From: Ordospora colligata OC4
Taxonomy: Eukaryota > Microsporidia > Ordosporidae
DNA length: 64,000 bases
Reading direction: 5' to 3'
Assembly: GCF_000803265.1 (NCBI RefSeq)
Contig: NW_014575401.1
Location: forward strand, 1-64,000
A model generated the notes under the pieces. The model ran no database searches, had not been told where the DNA came from, and saw nothing but the letters and a program-made list of their open reading frames with translations. Of the stretch, positions 9,608 through 51,281 are shown piece by piece (within the stretch, counting starts at the first letter, position 1; each line of letters begins with the position of its first letter). The position numbers and the translations under genes were made by a program.

Positions 9608-10152
9608 TTAAGATGAAACCGCATTGTTATTCGATATGCTCAAGGCTTCAGCTTGCCCTGTGAGCTCCCTTGCTCTCTCCTCCTCGCCCTTCTTCTTCAT
9701 AATGTAGTCCCTCATGTAGAACCTGTGCTTAAACAGATTTCCCTTCGCCTGCATGTAAAATACTCTGAACTCTTCTTTGCTTATCGTGCCCTCTGCTCGC
9801 ATCTCCTTCAGCATCGCTCTCATCGCCCTGATCTTCTTCATCCACAAATCCTTCTTCGGCATCCTGGCATTTGCTGTTCCAACCCTCTTTCCAATTCCCA
9901 TATGCCTACCCTTCTTTTTTGCTGCCATCCTTATTCTGAACCTTCCGCGACTATTATGCTTGTCCAACTTCATAATTATCACATTGTCCTTAATCAACTG
10001 TCGGACCTGGTCCCTTGTAGACACCTGATTCAGTCTTTCCACCTCGTTGATGTCTAGCCATATCTTCGACTTTCCACAATTCAGAATATCTGACGCTAAG
10101 CGCTTCACTCTCTGTTCATTCGTCCTTCAAATTAGTATTTCTCCACTTACAT
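9608..10152 (-). CDS. RPL19: 60S ribosomal protein eL19, with intron inside the start codon
   Basis: The 172-aa product of two exons: A10152-T10151, then G10124 down to 9608. Without splicing there is no usable start, because ATG is followed at once by TAA. Removing the 26-bp intron gives MTNEQRVKRLASDILNCGKS, then KIWLDINEVERLNQVSTRDQV, a typical eL19 N-terminus. The rest (RMAAKKKGRHMGIGKRVGTANARMPKK) is the conserved core. GAAAAATTTGCACCCTGAA precedes the start. The protein binds 25S rRNA in the large subunit. Confidence 0.93.
10125..10150 (-). other. Spliceosomal intron, 26 bp, in eL19
   Basis: Begins GTAAGT, has TACTAAT as branch site 11-17 bases in from the 3' end, and ends TTTGAAG. It splits the initiator codon between AT and G. 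Excision restores the exact eL19 N-terminus in frame, and the unspliced RNA would stop at the second codon. The very short length and 5' position match microsporidian ribosomal protein introns. Confidence 0.88.
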
Positions 10153-10172
10153 TTTCAGGGTGCAAATTTTTC
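10153..10172 (-). promoter_or_regulatory. AAATTT box plus CCC start signal of eL19
   Basis: On the minus strand this reads AAAAATTTGCACCCTGAA immediately before the start codon. The same pair of elements lies before eL14, eS26, uS13, eL36 and APC8. Such AAATTT and CCC signals are described for microsporidia. Confidence 0.65.
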
Positions 10173-10283
10173 TCCATTTTGTATCACCTATGCATGTAGC
10201 CTCTATCCTATTCAATTGTCGCATTAAGTATCATGCATTTCATCATTACTGAGTATGAACATCTTATCTTGTACATCAACTGC

Positions 10284-50920: not shown

Positions 50921-51281
50921 TTAATTTTGAGCAAGATTTGCTGCCCTGTTTGGATTGAACCCGTACCTGAGTTTCCTTCCCTTAGTTGATCTGACTCTGA
51001 CTATCTTGGCATGACAAGCACAAGAAATGCAGAACTGTGACTTGTATCCAATCCTTGGAACCTCAAATACATCGTATATCGTGGCAAGCTTTAAGTCGTC
51101 GAATGATGCCTGCTCAATCAATGACTGGATCCTGAATCTCTTAACTGCCTTGTCTTTGGGTGTGATTCGCCCACACTTGTCGCAATGGAGTGTGCTTACT
51201 CTTCCGCGATTTTTCTTCGATCGTCCGTGATTCTTTCTCTTAACAGTCTAAAAATTACAATGCTTGTTCATCACCTACCAT
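50921..51281 (-). CDS. RPS26: 40S ribosomal protein eS26, with intron after the start codon
   Basis: A 109-aa product of exon 1 (ATG, 51281-51279) and exon 2 (51247-50921). Splicing gives [20 protein letters not shown], then [20 protein letters not shown], then [20 protein letters not shown]; this aligns residue for residue with eS26 (M-T-x-K-R-x-N-x-G-R-x-K-K-x-R-G). Zinc-binding cysteines CDKC and [13 protein letters not shown] are present. Without splicing the conserved N-terminus has no start and is preceded by a stop. The protein lies at the mRNA exit. Confidence 0.93.
51248..51278 (-). other. Spliceosomal intron, 31 bp, in eS26
   Basis: Begins GTAGGT immediately after the ATG and ends in TGTAATTTTTAG. 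TAAT is the likely branch, very close to the 3' end. Removal joins Met to TVKRKNHGR in frame. An in-frame AG three codons later would delete TVK and fits eS26 less well. Confidence 0.87.

Follow-up and report, generated by a model that had tools for sequence, protein, structure and literature searches.

An intron in the start codon of the gene for ribosomal protein eL19 (L19) is already known in microsporidia. It has been in print since 2009, when the legend of a figure (Figure 1) described the L19 start codon of Nosema ceranae, together with its Encephalitozoon cuniculi orthologues, as interrupted by an intron (PMC2685015). In the same year, L19 was counted among six introns of Octosporea bayeri homologous to those of E. 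cuniculi (PMC2784321), and L19 introns are also described for Nosema YNPr, N. apis and N. bombycis, with GTAAGT donors in Nosema YNPr (PMC5012567). Here, we analysed the first 64,000 nucleotides (nt) of contig NW_014575401.1 of the microsporidian Ordospora colligata OC4 (the window; 37.6% G+C), in which the eL19 gene, on the minus strand, carries a 26-nt intron that splits its initiator codon. As in N. ceranae and E. cuniculi, it is a short intron in the start codon of the same gene, in another species; the O. bayeri and Nosema introns lie in the same gene.

A counterpart exists in yeast: RPL19A and RPL19B, as well as RPL43A and RPL43B, have 'AU' for their first coding exon (PMC3226532, Table 2), although introns in yeast are generally much larger, at about 400 bp (PMC10245619). 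The eL19 gene of O. colligata resembles RPL19A/B in that its start codon is split after base 2, whereas RPL43A/B differ from eL43 here, whose intron follows the whole ATG. The usual yeast donor is GUAUGU, and an unspliced form with that donor would not read AUG-UAA. Taken together, the 2009 report in related species and the yeast counterpart make the feature an ordinary one.

We consider it very probable (about 0.96) that the interruption of eL19 represents a conserved spliceosomal intron of the ordinary microsporidian kind, whose splicing is both required and constitutive. Removal of the 26 nt (GTAAGTGGAGAAATACTAATTTGAAG, minus strand 10150 to 10125) joins AT to G and yields ATG and an in-frame eL19 of 172 amino acids (aa), whereas the intron-retaining form opens with ATG TAA; the conserved frame is restored by removal and destroyed by retention. 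The intron has GT-AG borders with a strict GTAAGT-type donor and ends in AAG, its branch site is fused to the 3' splice site (TAAY followed by AG, TACTAATTTGAAG), and it lies in codon 1, at the 5' end of a ribosomal-protein gene. Exon 2 opens at 10124 with G ACG AAT GAA CAG, and its last stop base is 9608. In the spliced protein, the Pfam families Ribosomal_L19e and Ribosomal_L19e_C both score over the cut-off. The genome searched (2,279,121 bases in 13 contigs) holds one eL19 match, so that no intact second copy was found. A first-pass annotation of this DNA had proposed a spliceosomal-type intron splitting the eL19 initiator codon. Its coordinates and 26-nt length were right, although it left the minus strand unmentioned; the ATG followed at once by TAA that it read at the unspliced start is present in the sequence, and frame, signals and homology all support the split.

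The protein comparison points the same way. After splicing, the N-terminus reads MTNEQRVKRLAS and matches Encephalitozoon eL19, the genus of the nearest named proteins (74 to 76% identity). The spliced protein aligns from its first residue onwards with the eL19 chain in PDB 7QEP, whose N-terminus, MSNEERVRRLAS, is identical to that of P0003, a named E. cuniculi protein. The E. hellem protein P0002 begins MSNEKRIRRLAS, again matching the first residues of spliced eL19. The comparison with other microsporidian N-termini suggested by the first-pass annotation thus finds agreement with E. cuniculi and E. hellem. An identical 172-aa protein, P0001, is present in the protein database (6 members, 4 contigs), and its first residue is obtainable only from a spliced gene model, not from unspliced DNA. 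The N-terminal alignment took in 10 of the 50 database matches; in it, six of the nine others (P0002, P0003, P0011, P0014, P0017 and P0023) have M in the same column as P0001, while two proteins extend further (P0004 and P0010) and one, P0007, is shorter. P0004 (175 aa) begins MVICRTNEKR. This start would fit ...GTAATTTGCAG|G ACN, a hint, taken from the protein only, that an unspliced 3' intron end was translated there, at the same position as here. A search by pattern for orthologous eL19 DNA confirmed none among viral contigs (2 matches) or genome contigs (28 matches).

The upstream sequence allows a model of how the gene might be expressed. In E. cuniculi, 5' leaders are shorter than 7 nt in the genes tested, CCC stands immediately ahead of most coding starts, and AAATTT lies ahead of CCC in ribosomal-protein genes, as in other microsporidia (PMC2803860). 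Both signals are found here, the spacer between CCC and the AT of eL19 being TGAAA (Table 1). Transcription would most likely begin just past the CCC signal, giving an exon 1 of a few bases ending in AT; if the E. cuniculi leader rule is valid here, the whole of exon 1 is under about 9 nt. The spliceosome would then recognise GTAAGT and the branch site fused to the 3' end, excise the 26 nt and join AT to G, forming the AUG of eL19. We infer both this transcription start and the occurrence of eL19 splicing in O. colligata; a search for Prp8 and U6 found a Prp8 PROCN domain in a frame of 2072 codons and a U6 RNA above the gathering score.

An intron-retaining RNA would read AUG UAA and give no full-length eL19, which would make splicing obligatory. 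In such RNA, the ATGs that come next lead into frames of 4, 23 and 1 codons. Past ATG TAA, no ATG stands in the eL19 frame before codon 52 (window position 9973), so that at best a protein without the N-terminal domain (residues 5 to 53) could be made. The view of the first-pass annotation that unspliced mRNA cannot make the protein therefore holds for full-length eL19.

Table 1. Positions of the eL19 features in the window and of introns predicted in other genes for comparison.
Feature	Position	Strand	Basis
AAATTT-like promoter signal of microsporidian ribosomal-protein genes	10164..10169	-	AAATTT at 10169-10164; signal type in PMC2803860
CCC-like signal, 5 nt ahead of the split start codon	10158..10160	-	CCC at 10160-10158; PMC2803860
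Coding part of eL19 exon 1: AT, start-codon bases 1-2	10151..10152	-	Sequence, frame
26-nt spliceosomal-type intron of eL19, GTAAGT...TACTAAT...GAAG, codon 1, phase 2	10125..10150	-	Sequence, motif, frame
eL19 exon 2: start-codon G through stop; 172 aa with exon 1	9608..10124	-	Frame, Pfam
Comparison: 31-nt intron of eS26, directly after ATG (51281-51279)	51248..51278	-	Motif, frame, Pfam
Sec61-like gene, predicted 33-nt intron after 7 coding bases	L004, G000:C4:14612-14644	+	Motif
Adenylate kinase, predicted 24-nt intron well within the coding sequence, in contrast to the ribosomal-protein introns next to start codons	L045, G000:C6:81264-81287	+	Motif

How much weight the splice signals can bear was assessed against chance. 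A strict motif (GTAAGT-N4..30-ACTAAY-N1..8-AG) matches once in the window against 0.12 expected, but 12 of 100 shuffles contain at least one match, so that the motif by itself is weak evidence. A looser motif gives one match with a GTAAGT donor (0.33 expected; at least one in 26 of 100 shuffles) and one with a GTAGGT donor (0.13 expected; at least one in 12 of 100), these being the eL19 and eS26 introns. It is position that renders chance implausible: the sole strict match sits exactly where its removal rebuilds an ATG in frame with eL19, and the first residues so obtained match those of E. cuniculi and E. hellem.

Several observations weigh against our interpretation. In the genome scans, a reversed-pattern control was commoner than the motif (89 versus 33, 68 versus 6 and 48 versus 14), and since the motif is not enriched over this control, pattern matches alone prove nothing; the case for the eL19 intron accordingly rests on position and reading frame. 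The rarity of intron motifs relative to reversed controls may reflect composition or selection against false splice signals. Nor does a motif guarantee splicing: in Spraguea lophii, start-adjacent motifs were kept in the transcripts of six of eight genes (PMC3749934), and in E. cuniculi, 5' rapid amplification of cDNA ends found one predicted 27-nt ribosomal-protein intron unspliced, an intron that keeps the frame (PMC2803860). Finally, the legend that describes the N. ceranae and E. cuniculi introns gives neither the exact split nor the length (PMC2685015). On the other side, RNA sequencing (RNA-seq) confirmed splicing of all previously annotated E. cuniculi introns (PMC3629993).

Other ways of obtaining an eL19 start from this DNA can be compared with the split codon. 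Translation might begin at one of two ATGs above the promoter-like signals. A start at 10177 would go with a 39-nt intron (GTAAGT...GAACAG) and a protein MEKNLHPEN-RVKRLAS; a start at about 10224 would go with removal of the 26-nt intron and a 196-aa eL19 carrying 24 extra residues. The ATG at 10177 shares the eL19 frame, which a single TGA breaks, and removal of 39 nt ending in CAG keeps that frame; the other ATG is in frame 74 nt upstream of the 26-nt splice junction, with no intervening stop. Yet the 10177 form loses TNEQ, of which NE is also present in P0004 and in the proteins of E. cuniculi and E. hellem, and the 24 residues added in the longer form are absent from the named orthologues. 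Moreover, AAATTT and CCC lie between both upstream ATGs and the normal start, so that these ATGs are probably not transcribed, and under the E. cuniculi leader rule they would fall outside the RNA. We regard either start as highly improbable. The frame is indeed broken beside the start, as would be expected of a frameshifted or misassembled gene, but the splice signals are complete, the same build recurs in sister genes, L19 introns are published from other genera and the gene, present in one copy, shows no other damage, which leaves an error of this kind scarcely credible. Upstream-ATG starts, stop read-through and assembly error were rejected for eL19.

A different question is whether splicing of this same intron is regulated, as the first-pass annotation suggested in proposing an on/off switch. 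RNA retaining the intron, with its ATG TAA, indeed yields no full-length protein, and significant changes from one time point to another were recorded for 11 of 37 E. cuniculi junctions (PMC3629993). However, the same RNA-seq study reports no strong evidence of regulated splicing and finds that every E. cuniculi intron holds a stop or shifts the frame (PMC3629993), so that a dead unspliced form, and hence the need for splicing, is not special to eL19. In Hamiltosporidium tvaerminnensis, 17 introns tested (mean 28 bp) were 7.5 to 92.3% spliced (PMC10542269). The switch finds no support in our data, and we think it very unlikely. The suggestion that 26 bp is near the lower size limit fares no better: introns measure 22 to 76 nt in E. 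cuniculi (PMC3629993) and 16 to 17 nt in mikrocytids (PMC10245619), and shorter ones than that of eL19 are predicted in this genome, so that a 26-nt intron is of usual size for the group rather than at a limit.

Since AT followed by a GTAA donor always reads AUG-UAA, each unspliced eL19 transcript would be a start-stop message. By analogy with the plant NIP5;1 leader, in which AUGUAA stalls ribosomes and triggers decay (PMC11915504), such a message could conceivably hold ribosomes, mark the RNA for decay and explain the phase kept by the eL19 intron, an idea we rate as very unlikely. In the same reading, the predicted exon 1, at less than about 10 nt, would also be an extreme case of cap-proximal splicing. 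Among the papers listed on first exons and start-near intron retention in microsporidia, none addressed the start-stop idea by its title.

The ordinary-intron interpretation of eL19 is set in context by the other introns predicted in the genome. The looser motif gave 33 rows, corresponding to 32 distinct places, 20 of which were tested for a Pfam family. A family was found at 15 (eL19, eS1, eS6, eS8, eS10, eS26, eS30, uL5, uL18, eL6, eL37, eL39, eL43, Sec61 and adenylate kinase) and none at the remaining five (L005, L038, L042, L052 and L053). The 15 named introns measure 24, 24, 26, 27, 28, 30, 30, 30, 31, 32, 33, 33, 34, 45 and 49 nt, that of eL19 being the third shortest. The eL19-type build is common to the 14 other named genes, which were themselves found with that motif, and the intron lies at most 7 nt from the start codon in 14 of the 15 (13 of 14 without eL19). 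Counted from the nearest ATG, coding exon 1 is 2 nt in eL19, 3 nt in eight genes (eS1, eS26, eS30, uL18, eL6, eL37, eL39 and eL43), 4 nt in eS8, 6 nt in eS6 and 7 nt in Sec61; in eS10 and uL5 the ATG directly follows the intron end, and in adenylate kinase the interruption lies well inside the gene, at 112 or 133 nt. A split start codon is seen among these 15 genes in eL19 only. Besides eL19, further upstream in-frame ATGs occur in uL18, eS26, eL43, eL37 and eS30, and uL5 has a possible start 36 nt upstream; the nearest ATG was preferred because CCC-like signals stand just ahead of it. For eL39 and eS10, where the automatic choice took another frame, the reading given comes from a closer look at the frames.

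The eS26 intron (GTAGGT...TAATTTTTAG) gives a spliced protein of 109 aa whose stop ends at 50921. Among the counterparts of the O. bayeri intron genes other than L19 (L37a, which is eL43, S26, L39, L37 and L27a), four of five have an intron exactly after ATG; at the start of L27a, no intron was clearly needed to explain the start. Nine of the 17 unnamed places fall within read-through frames that span 75 or more codons and appear to be chance matches, two have shorter ones (21 and 51 codons), and six lack an open read-through frame. These six (L005, L037, L038, L052, L053 and L056; 23 to 28 nt) are possible further introns; no Pfam family was found downstream of L005, L038, L052 and L053. A whole-genome search for start-splitting introns (ATGTAAG-N5..35-CTAAY) gave 14 places, with eL19 as the only good case. 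One candidate, L012, reaches the 110-aa minimum frame set for the search, yet was rejected as lying inside a 319-codon frame that needs no splicing.

For gene annotation, the split codon means that intron-blind gene callers can lose the eL19 N-terminus; the database relatives P0005 to P0008 begin late, which is consistent with such a loss. The O. colligata gene is one more example of an intron that is already published and apparently old. Because yeast has the eL19 start codon split and microsporidia have it interrupted, the position of this intron may have survived extreme genome reduction.
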